From Moheibacter lacus (GTDB taxonomy: Bacteria > Bacteroidota > Bacteroidia > Flavobacteriales > Weeksellaceae): a DNA stretch of 64,000 bases. A program made the translations under genes and the position numbers. A model generated the notes under the pieces. That model searched no databases and had not been told where the DNA came from. It was given only the letters and a program-made list of their open reading frames with translations. Positions 13,427 through 61,510 of this stretch are shown here, in pieces. Position 1 is the stretch's first letter. The number at the start of each line of letters is the position of its first letter. The stretch covers positions 124,001 to 188,000 of the forward strand of contig NZ_JACDZE010000002.1 in assembly GCF_014042165.1 (NCBI RefSeq), given 5' to 3'.

Positions 13427-14011
13427 ATGATAAACTCGTTAGCATGCATTTACCAGCATCCCTTGCTTTCAAAAGCCAATTTGGACATTATATTTTCTGC
13501 ACACCGGCGAATTAAGGTTTCCAAAAACGAATTTCTTTTGCGTGAAGGCGAAGTTTTAAATTCTTACTATGTTTTGGAAAGCGGTTTGGTTCGGGCTTTT
13601 GTCCACGATTTTGATAACAATGAAATCACTACTGAATTCTTTGTGAAAAACGAAATTGTGATTGTTCCTTCTTCCCTTTTTCAAAGAATACCGTCCAAAG
13701 AAAATCTTCAAGCCGTTACGAATGCTGTCTTATGGAAAATTGAATTTGATGATTTCGAAAAATTATTTGATCAAATCGAAGGATTTAAAGATTGGGGAAG
13801 ATTATGGTTTACTTTCCAATTGTTTTCCAACAAACAACGATCACTCGACATGATTACGGAAACTGCTACCAACCGCTATTTAAAGTTGATGAAAGAAAAA
13901 CCTTCCATCGTCAAATCGGCTCCACTCAAACAAATTGCCTCTTATTTAGGAATTACAGATAGTTCATTAAGCCGAATTAGAAGGGAGATTTTATACAATT
14001 CAAAATCCTGA
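13427..14011 (+). CDS. Crp/Fnr family transcriptional regulator
   Basis: 194 residues. The N-terminal part is a cyclic-nucleotide-binding-like beta roll (LLREGEVLNSYYVLESGLVRAF), but the phosphate-binding RxS motif of true cAMP receptors is absent, as in most members from this phylum. The C-terminal helix-turn-helix is PLKQIASYLGITDSSLSRIRREIL. The recognition helix has SSLSR rather than the ETLSR pattern of the homologue at 58534. There is no Fe-S Cys cluster. Targets are unknown. Confidence 0.9.
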   Translation: MINSLACIYQHPLLSKANLDIIFSAHRRIKVSKNEFLLREGEVLNSYYVLESGLVRAFVHDFDNNEITTEFFVKNEIVIVPSSLFQRIPSKENLQAVTNAVLWKIEFDDFEKLFDQIEGFKDWGRLWFTFQLFSNKQRSLDMITETATNRYLKLMKEKPSIVKSAPLKQIASYLGITDSSLSRIRREILYNSKS

Positions 14012-52654: not shown

Positions 52655-53827
52655 TTACTTATTTTTATATTTCAAATTCACGACAAATGCCAGTAAAAAA
52701 TAGAACAAAGCAGTGAACCAAAGATATTTCCACCAAATTCCTACTTCTTGAAATGATGCTCCAAATTGGCTCATCGCGACAAATCCTTTTGCTCCAAAAG
52801 TACTGGGGAAACTCGTTGAAAGAATTTTCACCCAAGTTGGAAAAGCAAATTCAGGCCATGAAATTCCCGTAAGAAAAAGTGCCGGAATTGAAGTGAATGT
52901 GATGGATAATGCGGCATCTTCTCTCCTTTTAAAAATTCCGCGAAGCGAAAATCCCATAAAAATCACCGCCAGAAAAAACGGAATTAAATAGATGATGACA
53001 TCAAAGAAATTCGCTAAAAATGGAAGGTCAAAAATAGACATGCATCCGCCTGCAATAATCGAAAACAGAAGAATACAAATCATCAAATACGCCATTGAAC
53101 GCCCCAATAAAATCGGCAAAATATTAAAATTGCTTTTGTAAATAGAATGATAATTGTCGTACTCACGCATTGTTCCTTCCAAGACACCAATTCCGGTCAA
53201 TAAAAGCGTTTGAATGATGATTAAGTACACCACAGGCAACAAAAACGTCGCATAACCTCCGGTTGGATTGAAAAGTGCGTTACTAACTGGTGTTACGGCT
53301 CTTCTCGTATTCACCGAATTGATGTAAGTCATACCACGACGCATGGTTGCGCTGACTTCAATCTGGGCATTGAACGTAGCCAAAGATTTGGAAACCGCAG
53401 TACTTATGCCTTTATTGATCATCATGTTCGAAGCATCGCTGTACAATGAAATCGATGAACCACGACCATAGGTAATATCTTTTTCAAAATTCTCAGGAAT
53501 TAAAACAATTCCTGATATTTCTCCATGTTCAAATTGCGTTTGAGCATCTTCTAAATTGGAACCAATTCCGACGATTTTTATATTTTGCCCGGCTCCCACC
53601 ATCGATGTGAAATTTCGGCTTAAAGAAGACTGGCTCATGTCCACAACACTCACCGGGATTTTTTCAGGAATTTCGTTTTGATAAACGGCAGAATAAACAA
53701 ATGCCACCAAAATTCCCGTCACCACAACAGATGAAAACAAGGCTTTATCTTTAAAAAAGTGAACCAACTCCACCCGAAAAGATCGGAAAAACGCCGAAAA
53801 AAAGTGGGAAAAATTAATCTTTTTCAT
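52655..53827 (-). CDS. ABC-2 type permease, second subunit
   Basis: 390 residues from the ATG at 53827. One N-terminal membrane helix (LFSSVVVTGILVAFVYSAVY) is followed by a periplasmic domain of about 160 residues (IPVSVVDMSQSSLSRNF, GEISGIVLIPENFEKDI) and five helices in the C-terminal half (ABC2_membrane_3/YhhJ-like). Its start overlaps the end of the first permease by 14 bases, so the two are likely a heterodimer. No ATP-binding subunit is encoded next to it. Confidence 0.88.
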   Translation of the reverse strand: MKKINFSHFFSAFFRSFRVELVHFFKDKALFSSVVVTGILVAFVYSAVYQNEIPEKIPVSVVDMSQSSLSRNFTSMVGAGQNIKIVGIGSNLEDAQTQFEHGEISGIVLIPENFEKDITYGRGSSISLYSDASNMMINKGISTAVSKSLATFNAQIEVSATMRRGMTYINSVNTRRAVTPVSNALFNPTGGYATFLLPVVYLIIIQTLLLTGIGVLEGTMREYDNYHSIYKSNFNILPILLGRSMAYLMICILLFSIIAGGCMSIFDLPFLANFFDVIIYLIPFFLAVIFMGFSLRGIFKRREDAALSITFTSIPALFLTGISWPEFAFPTWVKILSTSFPSTFGAKGFVAMSQFGASFQEVGIWWKYLWFTALFYFLLAFVVNLKYKNK

Positions 53828-54977
53828 AATGTCCTTTTTGAAGTTTAACTCCGAATTTTGGGAGAGAAAATATTCCAATCAAAGCAAAAATGCTAAAGCC
53901 AATTAAATAATTAACGTTGGTAAATAACGGCATTCCTTTAATTGAAAGATCCGTAAACATCCTCGCATAGGAAGAAAATGGAAAAACCATATCCAAAATT
54001 TGAATTCCAACCGGCATTCCCATTGCCGGAAAAGTGTAACCGCTAAATGAAAACGCTAAGGCTGCATAACCACCACCAATGGTACAAAGTGTTCTAAAAT
54101 CTGAAGCGATGGAAACGAAAAACAATCCCATCAATTGAGTAACGATAATGAATAAAAAGGTAATGATGTACACATAACTAATGGGACAATTAAGCGGAAT
54201 TTGTAGATAACCAAAAAGATACGTAATCATCACAGTAGCCAGCAAAAAATATAGCAAAGTATAAGGGAGAACTTTTCCCCAATACACATTCCAAGCATTT
54301 CCGCCACGTTCATAGGTTTGTTTTCCTTGATTGTATTTCAAAATACTTCCGAGTGTAAAAATCGTTACCACCATTACGCACATTTGTAAAGCCATCGGAA
54401 ATAAGGATAAACTGAGGTAATGCGAATAATTTAAAGATGGATTAAACAAAGTATGCTGATCCAAAGTCACCGGATTGGCGGATAATTTCGCCTGATCCAA
54501 AGATTGTCCTTTTTTCATCAAAACATTCACTTTTGCTGAAGCCGAAAAAGTTCCCAAGGTTTGGTTAAATGCTTTGTACAATAAACCTCCGGGTGTTAAA
54601 TAATTTCCGTTATAATTCAACACAACATCCACATTTTGCCCACGTTGAATATCACGCTCAAAATTTTCCGGAATGGTGATCCACGCAAAAACTTCTCCGG
54701 TTCGGATTTGATGCATTGCGTTTTTTTCGTTGTTCACATCTGAGGTAAAATTGATCGTTGAATTGGCATCCAGTTGACGGATTAATTCTCTCGACAATCC
54801 CGATTTATCCTGATCTTGTATCGCCACCGGAATTTCGTGCAGCGCGCCGTCTCCAAAAATCGAAGCATACAAATAGAACAGAAACAAAGGCAGCCCAACG
54901 TAAGCCAAGAGGCGTTTTGGAGAATTGATCAGATTTTTTATTTCGTCTGTAAAGACATTCCAAAAACCGCTCATCAC
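53814..54977 (-). CDS. ABC-2 type permease, first subunit
   Basis: 387 residues, homologous in plan to the following gene: an N-terminal helix (LLAYVGLPLFLFYLYASIFG), a periplasmic domain (IPVAIQDQDKSGLSRELIRQL, GEVFAWITIPENFERDI) and five to six C-terminal helices. The family moves drugs, lipids or polymers out of the cytoplasm. The stop of this gene overlaps the start of the second permease; the HlyD stop is one base upstream of its start. Confidence 0.9.
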   Translation of the reverse strand: MMSGFWNVFTDEIKNLINSPKRLLAYVGLPLFLFYLYASIFGDGALHEIPVAIQDQDKSGLSRELIRQLDANSTINFTSDVNNEKNAMHQIRTGEVFAWITIPENFERDIQRGQNVDVVLNYNGNYLTPGGLLYKAFNQTLGTFSASAKVNVLMKKGQSLDQAKLSANPVTLDQHTLFNPSLNYSHYLSLSLFPMALQMCVMVVTIFTLGSILKYNQGKQTYERGGNAWNVYWGKVLPYTLLYFLLATVMITYLFGYLQIPLNCPISYVYIITFLFIIVTQLMGLFFVSIASDFRTLCTIGGGYAALAFSFSGYTFPAMGMPVGIQILDMVFPFSSYARMFTDLSIKGMPLFTNVNYLIGFSIFALIGIFSLPKFGVKLQKGHYEKD

Positions 54978-54978
54978 T

Positions 54979-55998
54979 TTATTTTTTCAGTTCTGAAGAT
55001 GGAATTAAAACGCTCATTCCCGGACGGAAACCTTCAATTTTTTGTGTTGGATAGGCTTTAATTTTAAAGGTTTTCAAATCGAAATCGCCTTTGGTTTTTG
55101 TAGCCGTCCAAGTTGCAAAATCGCCCAATGGCGAAATATATTTTACCTGAAGTTGAACTTTTTTATTTCCCAAAGCCGGAATTTCTGCATTGAATTTGGC
55201 ATTCATTTTAAACTGTTCCATCAAATCTTCTTTGATATTGAAAACCACCCAAATATCATTCAAATCAACAATGGTTGCCACCGGATAACCTGCGTTCACC
55301 AATTCACCAACGTTTGGAAAAATTTGTTCAATTTCGCCATCTGCAGAAGCCGTTACATTCACTTCTTTTCTATAGGTATTCACCTCAGAAACTGCACCAT
55401 TGGCTTGATTTACCAATGCTTCTGCCGCCAATTTATCTTCAGTTCTAGCTCCGTTCACCGCCATTTGATAATTATTGTAGGCTGCTTGTTGTTGTTGGTA
55501 AGTCGCATTTTTATTGGCAAATGCTTCATCTCTTTTTTGCGCCGGAATTACTTTGTCCCGATACAAATTTTCCATTCTTTGGTAAGTAGAATTCGCCAGA
55601 TCCGCTGCTGCTTTTGCTTGTTGCCAAAGATTGTAAGCAGCCTGAACTTGTTCGCTTCTCGTTCCGTTATTTGCTTTTTGATATTGTGCAGTAGCTGCGT
55701 CTTTTGCAGACTGAGCTTGCTGTAATTTTGCATCTAGCTCCGGACTGGAAAGCACAGCAATTAACTGACCTTTTATTACTTGATCGCCTTCTTTTACCAA
55801 TTGTTGCTCCAATCTTCCGACGATTTTAGAAGCGACATGAACTTCGGTTGCTTCAGCCTGACCCTGCAGAAAATCTTCGCTCGGTTTGCTGATGAAATGA
55901 ATGGAAACCGCAGCCAATCCGCCCATTATAAGCAATGCAATGAGAATATTGCTGAATTTAACCGCTTTATTTTTAGATGTATTTTTATTTGTTGACAT
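54979..55998 (-). CDS. HlyD-family periplasmic adaptor
   Basis: 339 residues. A single membrane anchor (ILIALLIMGGLAAVSIHFI) is followed by the half-lipoyl motif (HVASKIVGRLEQQLVKEGDQVIKGQLI), a long coiled coil with many Gln and Ala (residues 90-205), and the second half-motif (VNVTASADGEIEQIFPNVGELVNAGYPV). It links the inner-membrane permeases to the TolC-like channel. It is joined to its neighbours by gaps of 1 and 30 bases. Confidence 0.92.
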   Translation of the reverse strand: MSTNKNTSKNKAVKFSNILIALLIMGGLAAVSIHFISKPSEDFLQGQAEATEVHVASKIVGRLEQQLVKEGDQVIKGQLIAVLSSPELDAKLQQAQSAKDAATAQYQKANNGTRSEQVQAAYNLWQQAKAAADLANSTYQRMENLYRDKVIPAQKRDEAFANKNATYQQQQAAYNNYQMAVNGARTEDKLAAEALVNQANGAVSEVNTYRKEVNVTASADGEIEQIFPNVGELVNAGYPVATIVDLNDIWVVFNIKEDLMEQFKMNAKFNAEIPALGNKKVQLQVKYISPLGDFATWTATKTKGDFDLKTFKIKAYPTQKIEGFRPGMSVLIPSSELKK

Positions 55999-56028: not shown

Positions 56029-57390
56029 TTAAAACGTTTCAGAAGTATATTGATCACTGATGCCGCAGATTTCATAAAGTTTGGCAAGCGTAATATCGTA
56101 ATCGCTATAAGCTTTCAAGGTTTGAAGGTGAATCGATGCTTGGTTCATCTGTGCATCGACAACATCGACCGAATTGGCAATTCCTTCAGAAAAAGCACGT
56201 TCACGTACACGCACCAATTCACCTGCCAAATCCTTAGAGACTTCCAGAGAAGTGATCTGTTCCTCCTGTTTTTCAAGTTCTTTGTAGTATTTGCTCACCA
56301 AAGTTCGGATATCCAATTCCGCTTTTTTTCTGGCTAATTCTAAAGTAGATTTTTCAGATTCAGCTGCGCGAACATTATTTTTAGTAGCGAAACCATCAAA
56401 CAAATCATACTTCACTCCCACTCCTAAAAATAATGGATTGTCCAAAGGCAAGTTATTTGAAGCCAAAATTTTCTGGCCAAAAACAGCGACTGTTGGCAAA
56501 TGATTTGCTTTTTCGGCTTTAATTTTTTGTTCTGAAAGTTGCTCCAGCAATTTCAACTTTTCGATTTGAGGGAAATTATTGGATGCCAAATCCTGATAAT
56601 AATTAAGCGGCAATAAGTTTGATGAAACAAAAAACGGAGAAGAAAGTTTTTCATTTACATCCTCTACTTCCATCGTACTAGCCAAAGCTTCTTTTGCTAA
56701 ATCCAAATCTTTTTTACTCGCCAACAATTCTCTTTCCGAATTGGCGACAGCCACTTTTGCCTGAAGTGTTTCTGCACCGGCGATGATACCGTTTTCTTCT
56801 AATTTTTGGGCATTATACAAGTGTTTTTGCATCCCGTCAAAAACCAATTGACGCACTTCAACTGCTTCTTGAGCCAATTTGGCTTTGTAGTAATATTCCG
56901 CCAATTCCGAAACCAATTTTTGGGTTTCAGTACGGTTTTCATTTTTGGCGATTTCGGTTTTGATTTTGGAAACATTTTGTGCTGCTTTGATTTTTCCACC
57001 CGTATAAATCGGCCATGTAACACCTAGTCCAACCATTTGGACATCGTTTTCTTGCAGCGTAAAATTCCAATTTCCTAAAATACTGGGATTTGGAATTTGC
57101 AAAAGTCCGGCTACTTGCGCACGTTTGTCGTTTAGATCTAATGCAATGTCTTTGTCCATCCATGTTGCGGCTGCAAATGCATTGAATTTAGGATAACTTA
57201 AAGCTTTTGAAGCTTTTTCATTGAATTGGCTGGTTTCCAGTTTCTTTTGGTTGATTTGGAACTGTTTGTTGTTTCCCTTCATCAAATCTTGCGCTTGGGA
57301 AAAGGACAAACCCGATTCCTGCGCAAAAACATTGGACTGAAAACCCAAAACCGCCAATAAACCAAAGAATATGGTTTTTGTAGATTTCAT
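56029..57390 (-). CDS. TolC-family outer-membrane channel
   Basis: 453 residues with a signal peptide (FFGLLAVLGFQSNVFAQ) and no lipobox, unlike the NodT channel at 9014. Two OEP repeats with long helical hairpins are visible (GVTWPIYTGGKIKAAQN, GVGVKYDLFDGFATKNN). It is the first gene of the four-gene export operon. Upstream, after the terminator of the hydrolase gene, lies a perfect TTTGAC-N4-GTCAAA dyad, 54 bases before the ATG. Confidence 0.92.
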   Translation of the reverse strand: MKSTKTIFFGLLAVLGFQSNVFAQESGLSFSQAQDLMKGNNKQFQINQKKLETSQFNEKASKALSYPKFNAFAAATWMDKDIALDLNDKRAQVAGLLQIPNPSILGNWNFTLQENDVQMVGLGVTWPIYTGGKIKAAQNVSKIKTEIAKNENRTETQKLVSELAEYYYKAKLAQEAVEVRQLVFDGMQKHLYNAQKLEENGIIAGAETLQAKVAVANSERELLASKKDLDLAKEALASTMEVEDVNEKLSSPFFVSSNLLPLNYYQDLASNNFPQIEKLKLLEQLSEQKIKAEKANHLPTVAVFGQKILASNNLPLDNPLFLGVGVKYDLFDGFATKNNVRAAESEKSTLELARKKAELDIRTLVSKYYKELEKQEEQITSLEVSKDLAGELVRVRERAFSEGIANSVDVVDAQMNQASIHLQTLKAYSDYDITLAKLYEICGISDQYTSETF

Positions 57391-57443
57391 TTTCTAATTA
57401 TTTGTTTGTGAGTACAAATTTCCAACGATAGAAAACGAAATCC

Positions 57444-57459
57444 TTTGACATTTGTCAAA
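57444..57459. promoter_or_regulatory. FNR-like dyad upstream of the TolC-HlyD-permease operon
   Basis: TTTGAC-ATTT-GTCAAA has perfect symmetry with a 4-base centre, the geometry of Crp/Fnr half-sites (FNR consensus TTGAT-N4-ATCAA). The regulator at 58534 lies two genes upstream. Confidence 0.6.
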
Positions 57460-57464
57460 AAGTG

Positions 57465-57490
57465 AAAACCGCCACGGTTGCGACGGTTTT
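57465..57490 (-). terminator. Terminator of the hydrolase gene
   Basis: On the minus strand AAAACCG and CGGTTTT form a 7-bp stem with a 12-base loop, then CACTTTTT. It separates the hydrolase from the export operon, which therefore has its own promoter. Confidence 0.5.
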
Positions 57491-57503
57491 GTTTAGATTT
57501 AAA

Positions 57504-58469
57504 TTAGAATTGATTTTGTAGTATCCAATCAAACAATTTTTGATAAACTTTTTTTCTCACTTCCTTTCTCGACAACACCAAATCGTGGATGCCATCTTTG
57601 AAAGGAAGAATCATTACATTTCCTTGAATTTTCTGAGCATATTTTCGGATGTCTTTTTCGCTCAAAATGATATCGGAACCGAAAACTTCATCACTCATTT
57701 TTTTAGGATTTGAAGACTTTTCAGCATGCATTACCAAAACCGGAAAATTGATGCTTACTCCTTTTTTGATTTCCCTTTGGGCTTGATGAATCGCACGAAT
57801 GAATCCGAAATTTACTTTTTCCGCAACATTGGGTTTCCAATCCAAATTATAATTCCATTTTCCGAAAAAATTCTGATGCAAACTTTGTCCGTACAATGGA
57901 GAAAAACCTCCATTTATTTTTTTATCGGGATAATTTTTCCCTAATCTACTGATGACGGGAATTCCGAAGGTTTCTGAAAAAAAAACCAAATTGAAATCAT
58001 AAAACGGTGAATTGCACCACAATCCTTTCACCATAGGATTATCAGTTCGCGAAGCAAAGTAAGTCAAAGTCAATCCTCCTGTGGAATGTCCCGCTAAAAG
58101 TACTTTCGAATGATTTTCTTGCTCAATGATTTTCAATGCTTGGTTGATTTCGGCATCGTATTCTTTCAAATCACGAACGTTGTTCATCTTTTGACTCGGA
58201 AGCCAGGAACGACCATATTTTCTTAGATCCAAGGCATAAAAGTTAAAACCATTTTGGTTGAACTTTTCTGCCATTTCCACCTGGAAAAAATAATCATTGA
58301 ATCCATGAACATACAAAACTGCCTTTTCAGATGGGTTTTCAGATAATTTACGAACTAATGTCGCCGTTACTTTTCCTTCATAATCATCAGGAAAATTTAG
58401 CGTCATTTGTTCAAAATCATTTCCTAAAATATTGGGTTGGTAGTTTTCTGAATTGATAGATTTGGTCAT
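57504..58469 (-). CDS. Alpha/beta hydrolase (monoacylglycerol-lipase-like, serine aminopeptidase S33)
   Basis: 321 residues. The nucleophile elbow is VLLAGHSTGGLTL near residue 130; LYVHGFNDYFFQVEMAEKF and FYALDLRKYGRSW precede it; the acid and His are likely in VMHAEKSSNP and DGIHDLVLS. No signal peptide, so it is cytoplasmic. It may hydrolyse lipids or other esters. It lies between the Crp/Fnr regulator and the export operon; a near-dyad (58514-58529) precedes it. Confidence 0.88.
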   Translation of the reverse strand: MTKSINSENYQPNILGNDFEQMTLNFPDDYEGKVTATLVRKLSENPSEKAVLYVHGFNDYFFQVEMAEKFNQNGFNFYALDLRKYGRSWLPSQKMNNVRDLKEYDAEINQALKIIEQENHSKVLLAGHSTGGLTLTYFASRTDNPMVKGLWCNSPFYDFNLVFFSETFGIPVISRLGKNYPDKKINGGFSPLYGQSLHQNFFGKWNYNLDWKPNVAEKVNFGFIRAIHQAQREIKKGVSINFPVLVMHAEKSSNPKKMSDEVFGSDIILSEKDIRKYAQKIQGNVMILPFKDGIHDLVLSRKEVRKKVYQKLFDWILQNQF

Positions 58470-58513
58470 AAATAAAATAATTTTTAAAAATCAGAAACTT
58501 TCAAATTTTTTCC

Positions 58514-58529
58514 TTTGATATTTATTAAA
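58514..58529. promoter_or_regulatory. Degenerate FNR-like dyad upstream of the hydrolase
   Basis: TTTGAT-ATTT-ATTAAA resembles the site at 57444-57459: the innermost pair changes from C-G to T-A together, and the flanking CC and AA are also shared. One arm position is unpaired. It lies 45 bases before the hydrolase ATG. Confidence 0.45.
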
Positions 58530-58533
58530 AAAT

Positions 58534-59094
58534 CTAAATTGAACTGCGGATACGACTAAGCGTTTCCTGCGAAATTCCGAGGTAAGAAGCAATCATTCCA
58601 AGTGGCGCACGCAATAAAATATCAGGATGTTCTGTGAGCAATTCCTGATATTTTTCTTTTGCGGTCATATGCTGTAAAGAGTGTACTCTTTTTTCCATAT
58701 TAGCGAGAAGAACGCCCAAAACTCTTCGCGAAAAATTGGCAAGAGCCAAAGAGTTTTCGCACAACTCTTCCAGTTTGGAATAATTGAAATAAGTCACCAA
58801 AGAAGGTTCAATTGCATCAATATTATTATCATCAGATTGATTAAGAAAAATGGTATTTTTATTGGCAATGAGGTTTCCTTCTTTGTAAAAATTGGCCGTT
58901 AAATCTTTTCCATTTTCAAAATAAAAGGAGCGCAAAAGTCCTTTTTCTAAAAAATAAAGATTGTGATCCACAGAATTATGGGAACTTAACACTTCTCCTT
59001 TCGACAAGTGTTTTTCTGATCCAAATTGATTAATAAACTGACGAATTTCATCATCAATTTTTACATACTGAGAAATGGATTCTAGGATTTTCAT
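58534..59094 (-). CDS. Crp/Fnr family regulator (intact copy)
   Basis: 186 residues from the ATG at 59094 (a TTG at 59106 is in frame). The cNMP-like beta roll (LSKGEVLSSHNSVDHNLYFLEKGLLRSFYF) lacks the cAMP phosphate motif and Fe-S Cys. The helix-turn-helix MIASYLGISQETLSRIRSS has ETLSR in the recognition helix, the ExxSR pattern by which E. coli FNR reads TTGAT half-sites. It is divergent from poxB and upstream of the hydrolase and export genes. A broken paralogue lies at 60985-61510. Confidence 0.92.
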   Translation of the reverse strand: MKILESISQYVKIDDEIRQFINQFGSEKHLSKGEVLSSHNSVDHNLYFLEKGLLRSFYFENGKDLTANFYKEGNLIANKNTIFLNQSDDNNIDAIEPSLVTYFNYSKLEELCENSLALANFSRRVLGVLLANMEKRVHSLQHMTAKEKYQELLTEHPDILLRAPLGMIASYLGISQETLSRIRSSI

Positions 59095-59236
59095 CGAGGA
59101 ATACAAAGCTACAATATTATTTAAAAATTTATGAAAGATTTAATATTTACAGAATAGTTTAGGTAAAATATTTGTTAAATTTAATGGTTTTAAAGAACGA
59201 AACATAGATATTATCTAAATCACTAAAAAAAATATT

Positions 59237-60984: not shown

Positions 60985-61510
60985 CTGCGAACACTCCCAC
61001 GATAAGAAGAAATTCCAAGTGGCGCACGCAATAAAATATCAGGATGTTCTGTGAGTAATTCCTGATATTTTTCTTTTGCAGTCATGTGTTGTAAAGAGTG
61101 TACTCTTTTTTCCATATTAGCGAGAAGAACGCCCAAAACTCTTCGCGAAAAATTGGCAAGCGCCAAAGAGTTTTCGCACAACTCTTCCAGTTTTGAATAA
61201 TTGAAATAAGTCACCAAAGAAGACTCGATCGCTTCAATATTGTTATTTCCCGATTCTTTTAGAAAAATGATATCTTTATTGGCAATGAGATTTCCTTCTT
61301 TGTAAAAATTGGCCGTTAAATCTTTTCCATTTTCAAAATAAAAGGACCGTAAAAATCCTTTTTCAAATAATAAAGATTTCGATCAACTGTATTTTGAGAG
61401 CTCAGAACTTCTCCTTTCGCCAATTGTTTTTCTTGACCAAATTCGTCAATAAACCGAAGAATTTCATCATCAACTCTTATGTATTGGGAAAGCGTTTCGA
61501 GAATTTTCAA
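60985..61510 (-). pseudogene. Crp/Fnr regulator pseudogene (paralogue of 58534-59094)
   Basis: The DNA is closely similar to the intact regulator over about 500 bases, with long identical runs (for example 61080-61160). It carries three defects: the ATG has become TTG (61510), a one-base deletion near 61365 shifts the frame after NLYYLKKD, and the end of the gene is rearranged so that the helix-turn-helix is lost after RAPLG. Two overlapping open fragments remain. It lies just after poxB, on the opposite strand. Confidence 0.88.

Follow-up and report, generated by a model that had tools for sequence, protein, structure and literature searches.

A Crp/Fnr-type regulator, its candidate binding dyad and a fixed promoter distance at an efflux locus of Moheibacter lacus

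The locus and its regulator

In a 64,000-nt stretch of the Moheibacter lacus genome (hereinafter referred to as the window), a gene for a Crp/Fnr-type regulator heads a row of minus-strand genes in the order regulator, hydrolase, TolC, HlyD, permease 1 and permease 2 (Table 1). The question raised by this locus is whether the regulator controls the genes behind it through FNR-like dyads, and by what mechanism. A preliminary description had proposed such an efflux regulon; its gene order from hydrolase to second permease was correct, and both of its 16-mers were recovered at their positions, one in each gap. The pump cluster (52655-55998) contained two ABC-2 permeases, and no ATPase gene was found among the proteins scanned with Pfam.

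Table 1. Features of the locus, with window positions.
Feature	Position	Strand	Evidence or remark
Crp/Fnr-type regulator, 186 aa, recognition helix SQETLSRIR	58534..59094	-	PF00027 cNMP_binding, E 3.4e-9
Alpha/beta hydrolase	57504..58469	-	PF12146, E 9.7e-18
TolC-type outer membrane efflux protein	56029..57390	-	PF02321, E 1.9e-50
HlyD-type periplasmic adaptor	54979..55998	-	PF16576, E 3.6e-17
ABC-2 type permease 1	53814..54977	-	PF12698, E 4.9e-45
ABC-2 type permease 2	52655..53827	-	PF12698, E 4.1e-43
Candidate -7 box TAGCTTTG of the regulator's own promoter	59104..59111	-	matches TAnnTTTG (PMC9723704, in excerpt)
Site 1, perfect dyad TTTGACAAATGTCAAA (coding strand)	57444..57459	-	between hydrolase and TolC
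-7 box GAAATTTG of the pump promoter	57415..57422	-	21 bp past site 1
Site 2, imperfect dyad TTTAATAAATATCAAA	58514..58529	-	4 nt past the regulator stop codon, before the hydrolase
Degenerate -7 box GATTTTTA	58485..58492	-	21 bp past site 2; 0.1 bits
Broken second regulator copy	60985-61509	-	frameshifted
Further Crp/Fnr-type gene	13517-13987	+	helix ITDSSLSRIRR

The N-terminal part of the regulator matched the cyclic-nucleotide-type domain (37.0 bits against a cut-off of 27.5), which places the protein in the Crp/Fnr superfamily. Its C-terminal end, ...GMIASYLGISQETLSRIRSSI, contains ETLSR in the recognition helix, as had been read earlier, and this segment aligns with VETISR of an Aliivibrio fischeri FNR chain (ETISR in FNR). 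The L-S-R and R of the helix were invariant in an alignment of 38 relatives. Pfam reported no helix-turn-helix domain at E 0.001; the FNR alignment, the relatives, the AlphaFold2 model (mean pLDDT 92.2) and its matches to FNR and CRP together identify a C-terminal helix-turn-helix with a recognition helix of the E181/R185 type. The top PDB match to the model was A. fischeri FNR (8qto; TMq 0.81, 22% identity). In FNR proper, four cysteines hold an oxygen-labile [4Fe-4S] cluster. The regulator has a single cysteine, at residue 112, so that it cannot carry this cluster and is not an FNR proper; it is FNR-like in its predicted DNA reading, with TTGAY-N4-RTCAA boxes near its genes.

Two other Crp/Fnr-type sequences were present in the window. 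The broken second copy has lost the recognition helix and is 94-100% identical to the intact gene in patches and about 76-80% identical elsewhere, a pattern expected from gene conversion. The further gene is 28% identical to the regulator.

Of the two dyads described before, only site 1 is perfect. On the coding strand site 2 reads TTTAAT-AAAT-ATCAAA; its upstream half, with A where G is expected, is degenerate, and the flanks are not fully common to both sites as had been stated. Site 2 is probably weak, with matrix scores of 16.6 bits for the dyad and 0.1 bits for the -7 box. The change of the innermost pair from C-G to T-A had been taken as covariation, but no association was found over 37 dyad-plus-box sites of relatives (T-G 15, C-G 12, T-A 7, C-A 3; Fisher p 0.48). 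Inner-pair covariation was accordingly discarded as evidence of binding; the inner pair is a loose Y...R.

A fixed distance between dyad and promoter box

At 80 loci around relatives of the regulator (1.41 Mb), the spacer from the dyad to an nAnnTTTG box was 21 bp in 25 of 33 pairs, and the remaining 8 were spread over six values. A first, hand-made list of sites gave 21 bp in 19 of 21 cases, the exceptions being window site 2 and the oleate-hydratase site of L159, whose box is off consensus; a second list of seven comprised four sites with 21 bp, two with 22 bp (L161, L164) and one with an off-consensus box at 21 bp, some sites recurring across the lists where the same species is represented twice (L005, L162).

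This fixed promoter distance, which the preliminary description had not noticed, points to the mechanism. Bacteroidota promoters served by the housekeeping sigma factor are reported to be without the usual -35 box (PMC7366714, in excerpt), and the sigma-A box of Flavobacterium psychrophilum is placed at -12 to -5 (PMC9723704, in excerpt). With the box at that position, a spacer of 21 bp puts the dyad at -49 to -34 from a predicted start, with its centre at about -41.5. A centre at -41.5 is the position of a class II activator, and the dyad occupies it when counted from the predicted start.

The pump transcription start is predicted at about 57410 by analogy with the box placement in F. psychrophilum (PMC9723704, in excerpt), and the TolC promoter reads AAAGGAT around -33, where TTTG is absent. 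In the 2.77-Mb genome, exact TTTGAYN4RTCAAA occurred at 7 places, and the dyad followed by a -7 box (spacer 20-22) at one place, which is site 1 before TolC with a spacer of 21. The leader TTTGTACTCACAAACAAA behind the pump -7 box was found once in the genome (pattern TTTGTANNNNCAAACAAA) and is present identically in L010, which suggests that the pump promoter came with the regulator.

Given the observed sites, spacing and conservation, and the co-occurrence with the regulator documented below, we assign a probability of roughly 0.75 to the reading that an efflux and detoxification regulon is switched on by the regulator acting as an effector-gated class II activator, which would bind TTTGAY-N4-RTCAAA at a fixed promoter distance. 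A regulator dimer would recognize the dyad via its E181/R185-type helix (QETLSR). At the pump promoter, which has a -7 box and no TTTG at -33, the dimer at -49 to -34 would replace the missing upstream element and contact RNA polymerase in the class II manner, thereby switching on TolC-HlyD-permease-permease. The cNMP-type domain may respond to an effector, and the list of targets prompts the guess of a toxic lipophilic compound. Site 2 would repeat, in weaker form, the regulator-dyad-target layout found beside relatives, and the hydrolase may mostly be transcribed by read-through from the regulator's promoter. Such an arrangement would be a probable architecture for activation at Bacteroidota housekeeping sigma promoters without the usual -35 box, and the promoter rule behind it (TTTGAY-N4-RTCAAA, 21 bp, nAnnTTTG) can be scanned in any genome.

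The same regulator and sites might instead work in repression, with the dimer upstream of the -7 box blocking polymerase until a ligand releases it. This would agree with the end of the dyad at -34, where polymerase binds, and with the TetR-type genes carried by the pump orthologues of five genomes, TetR-type proteins being usually repressors. Repression needs no fixed distance, yet 25 of the 33 spacings were exactly 21 bp, and the absence of TTTG at -33 of the pump promoter also speaks against it; we regard this alternative as unlikely.

The regulator and its site co-occur across relatives

The closest relatives of the regulator (51-60% identical) were placed after TolC-HlyD-permease, after a hydrolase, or after both (L157, L158, L160). 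The adjoining hydrolases were 63-65% identical to that of the window, and the TolC proteins beside the closest relatives 20-25% identical to the window TolC where BLAST found them. By this placement the two-site layout, with one site ahead of TolC and one ahead of the hydrolase, is seen again in a different gene order; the hydrolase site of L160 has one mismatch. An extra dyad precedes a gene of the oleate hydratase family (PF06100) in G031 (L159) and likewise in L001, L002 and L003, where the L003 gene is short as called. The L159 gene had been taken by eye for a catalase, and Pfam assigned it to the MCRA/oleate hydratase family. Beside distant relatives (29-38% identical) the dyad came next, followed by BAAT-type hydrolases or DoxX-like genes, and beside other paralogues it preceded an SMR multidrug pump (L167, L169) or an amidase (L164). 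A common site thus stands before non-homologous targets, namely TolC (pumps 20-25% alike), hydrolase, PF06100, SMR, amidase, DoxX-like and BAAT-type genes. In L167 (4250-4666) and L169 (1758-2160), the paralogue is 34% identical and is followed by the dyad and the SMR gene, the latter assigned by Pfam in L167 only.

Sorted by recognition helix, the 80 loci carried dyad plus box in 23 of 27 cases for QETLSR, 0 of 47 for PESLSR (2 with the dyad alone), 0 of 2 for QSTLSR, 0 of 3 for PETLSR and 0 of 1 for the other type. In the tree, most QETLSR rows grouped in a single clade, which had 31 rows and contained 3 exceptions, so that the contrast with PESLSR is largely one evolutionary event and p-values overstate independence; helix class was therefore dropped as an independent predictor of the site. 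E181 and R185 are also present at the 47 PESLSR loci, which have no such site, so that an adjacent site cannot be predicted from the residues of the helix alone.

In the wider clade, 29 of 30 loci had at least 9 of the 10 core letters of TTGAYN4RTCAA, followed after exactly 21 bp by a TTTG box; the sole exception, L009, keeps QETLSR and lacks a good site. Two sister loci, L023 and L036, have E181 changed to S, and their sites have A6 changed in one half, while the other 27 good-site loci keep A6. A link of E181 with A6, and of position 180 with base 3, has been described (PMC1274295, in excerpt). L029, a single case, has the helix PETLSR and a site whose outermost pair is C/G and whose TTGAT/GTCAA core and spacer of 21 are unchanged. 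Altered recognition helices beside correspondingly altered sites make L023, L036 and L029 natural specificity variants, and a natural check of the E181-A6 rule is now possible in a new phylum.

In 296 family genomes, the close clade (E 1e-40 or better) was present in 47, and dyad plus box was found in all 47 of these against 66 of the 249 without the clade (Fisher p 1.4e-23, with genomes treated as independent despite their kinship). Among the matches listed, 42 of 45 comparable regulator genes (52 in all) had a same-strand site 0-7 kb upstream. Of the three without such a site, those of G194 and G159 were second copies, and the third was the gene of G082, which lies on a different contig from its site. 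Similarly, TTTGAYAAATRTCAAA was found at 17 places in 12 of 59 relatives' genomes, against 2 in the reversed control, and the 9 close-clade genomes (identity at least 46%) were all among these 12. By the preliminary description, a lack of the motif in relatives that keep the regulator would refute the idea; the motif was there, in 47 of 47 genomes and at 29 of 30 wider-clade loci. Its idea of a candidate regulon also came through the matrix ranking, the spacing and the site-to-helix comparison.

A reverse test started from the site. The exact-spacer pattern occurred at 33 places in 25 of 395 phylum genomes and at none in the reversed control. With the own genome left out, 27 phylum loci were used, three of them from family genomes already searched. 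A Crp/Fnr-type helix lay within 1.5 kb of the site at 15 of the 27, in every case ETLSR (10 QETLSR, 5 LETLSR), and 12 had none. The same helix pattern had no match in 1.22 Mb of background. Of 30 loci drawn from the family, 6 had a Crp/Fnr-type helix nearby, always ETLSR, and 24 had none, so that many Chryseobacterium-like sites must serve distant or other regulators. Together with the 66 genomes that have dyad plus box but not the clade, these loci indicate that the box is also used by other regulators.

These 24 loci are also in line with the idea that the dyads are real Crp/Fnr sites read by another Crp/Fnr protein of the same genome, or by several, as are the several Crp/Fnr-type genes of the present genome (G000), where 7 stretches matched, one being the regulator itself and two falling in the broken copy. 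Genome by genome, however, the sites go with this clade (47 of 47) and adjoin it, and the second helix detected in the window has a different sequence, which makes another reader improbable.

A matrix built from 25 dyad-box promoters, all from other genomes, ranked site 1 first and site 2 second among 127,910 window positions. Loose matches mean little: with up to 2 mismatches allowed, the window contained 60 copies of the pattern and shuffled sequence 43.6 (sd 6.4), and counting them as evidence was abandoned as uninformative. That AT-rich dyads fall into intergenic gaps by accident of promoter composition would suit this mild excess, and site 2 by itself would not stand out, but with 0 perfect dyads in reversed sequence against 32 at the 80 loci, the reversed controls of 2 against 17 and 0 against 33 places given above, and 11 matches (counted from the table) in the reversed 296 family genomes against 113 genomes with real ones, chance is very improbable overall and already refuted for site 1.

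Known systems, pump orthologues and possible effectors

FNR acts from the class II position. With the FNR of Escherichia coli and A. fischeri, the regulator shares the fold, the helix type and the box type TTGATN4ATCAA (PMC1274295, in excerpt); it differs in having one cysteine, no iron-sulphur oxygen sensor, and efflux and hydrolase genes as its targets. The core motif also equals that of HcpR from delta-proteobacteria and cyanobacteria (wyTTGACnnnnGTCAArw / TTGACnnnnGTCAA), whose regulon comprises hcp, frdX and NO metabolism in excerpts of PMC1274295, whereas the window targets are hydrolase and efflux genes and no named window gene is of the HcpR kind. For HcpR2 of most Bacteroides, the same source gives GTAACN4GTTAC. 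CprK of Desulfitobacterium, an activator of the Crp/Fnr type whose binding site is TTAAT-N4-ATTAA and whose signal is a small toxic aromatic (PMC3638464, in excerpt), may serve as a model for compound sensing; it controls reductive dehalogenases and was compared by description only. The Crp homologue of Porphyromonas gingivalis is a Bacteroidota member of the family that binds DNA without cyclic nucleotides, but its box is reported to resemble that of E. coli Crp and its targets are mfa and its own gene (PMC12040651, in excerpt). Crp/Fnr proteins and the core motif are therefore already known (HcpR, PMC1274295); a text search, weak on the spelling 'Crp/Fnr', returned no literature naming targets of this Crp/Fnr group, or its clade or geometry. 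Crp/Fnr-type regulators are numerous in Bacteroidota.

Pump operons of the same family provided a further comparison. A search of the other 99 family genomes (E 1e-30) gave orthologues of the window TolC (38-47% identical; HlyD 51-62%) in 11. None of these 11 genomes had the close clade or a dyad-box site anywhere, and the best match upstream of the pump reached 8-10 of 12 letters. A TetR_N gene adjoined TolC in place of the Crp/Fnr gene in 5 of the 11 (TetR-TolC-HlyD-permease-permease operons), and neither gene type did so in 6. As pump orthologues without the clade lack the dyad, the dyad follows the regulator and not the pump. The five other genomes of the same genus had neither the close clade nor a TolC orthologue. 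The locus is a concrete test case for how efflux operons change regulators in evolution.

As a tentative extension of the class II activator reading, the ETLSR-helix Bacteroidota clade might consist of one- or few-target detoxification switches, each sensing a lipophilic compound, in Weeksellaceae perhaps antimicrobial fatty acids, and activating promoters with only a -7 box from exactly -41.5; here the module of promoter and regulator would have taken over a pump left to TetR in relatives. No full oleate hydratase was found in the own genome, so the fatty-acid reading is without direct support here; a candidate regulon member was rejected as a partial match covering positions 2-73 of 495 (23.8 bits against a cut-off of 23). 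The fatty-acid guess comes from the same dyad preceding an oleate-hydratase-family gene with a 3-hydroxyacyl-CoA dehydrogenase gene behind it, a lipase-like hydrolase and a TolC pump. In F. psychrophilum in fish mucus, oleate hydratases and efflux pumps were reported to be induced together (PMC9723704, in excerpt).

Another FNR-box regulon was noticed in a Chryseobacterium-like genus (g20), where the promoter TTTGAYCTARRTCAAAGTTT...GACMTTTG, with a spacer of 21 and no Crp/Fnr helix within 1.5 kb, was present at L174, L179, L180, L186, L188, L191-L193 and L195-L200.
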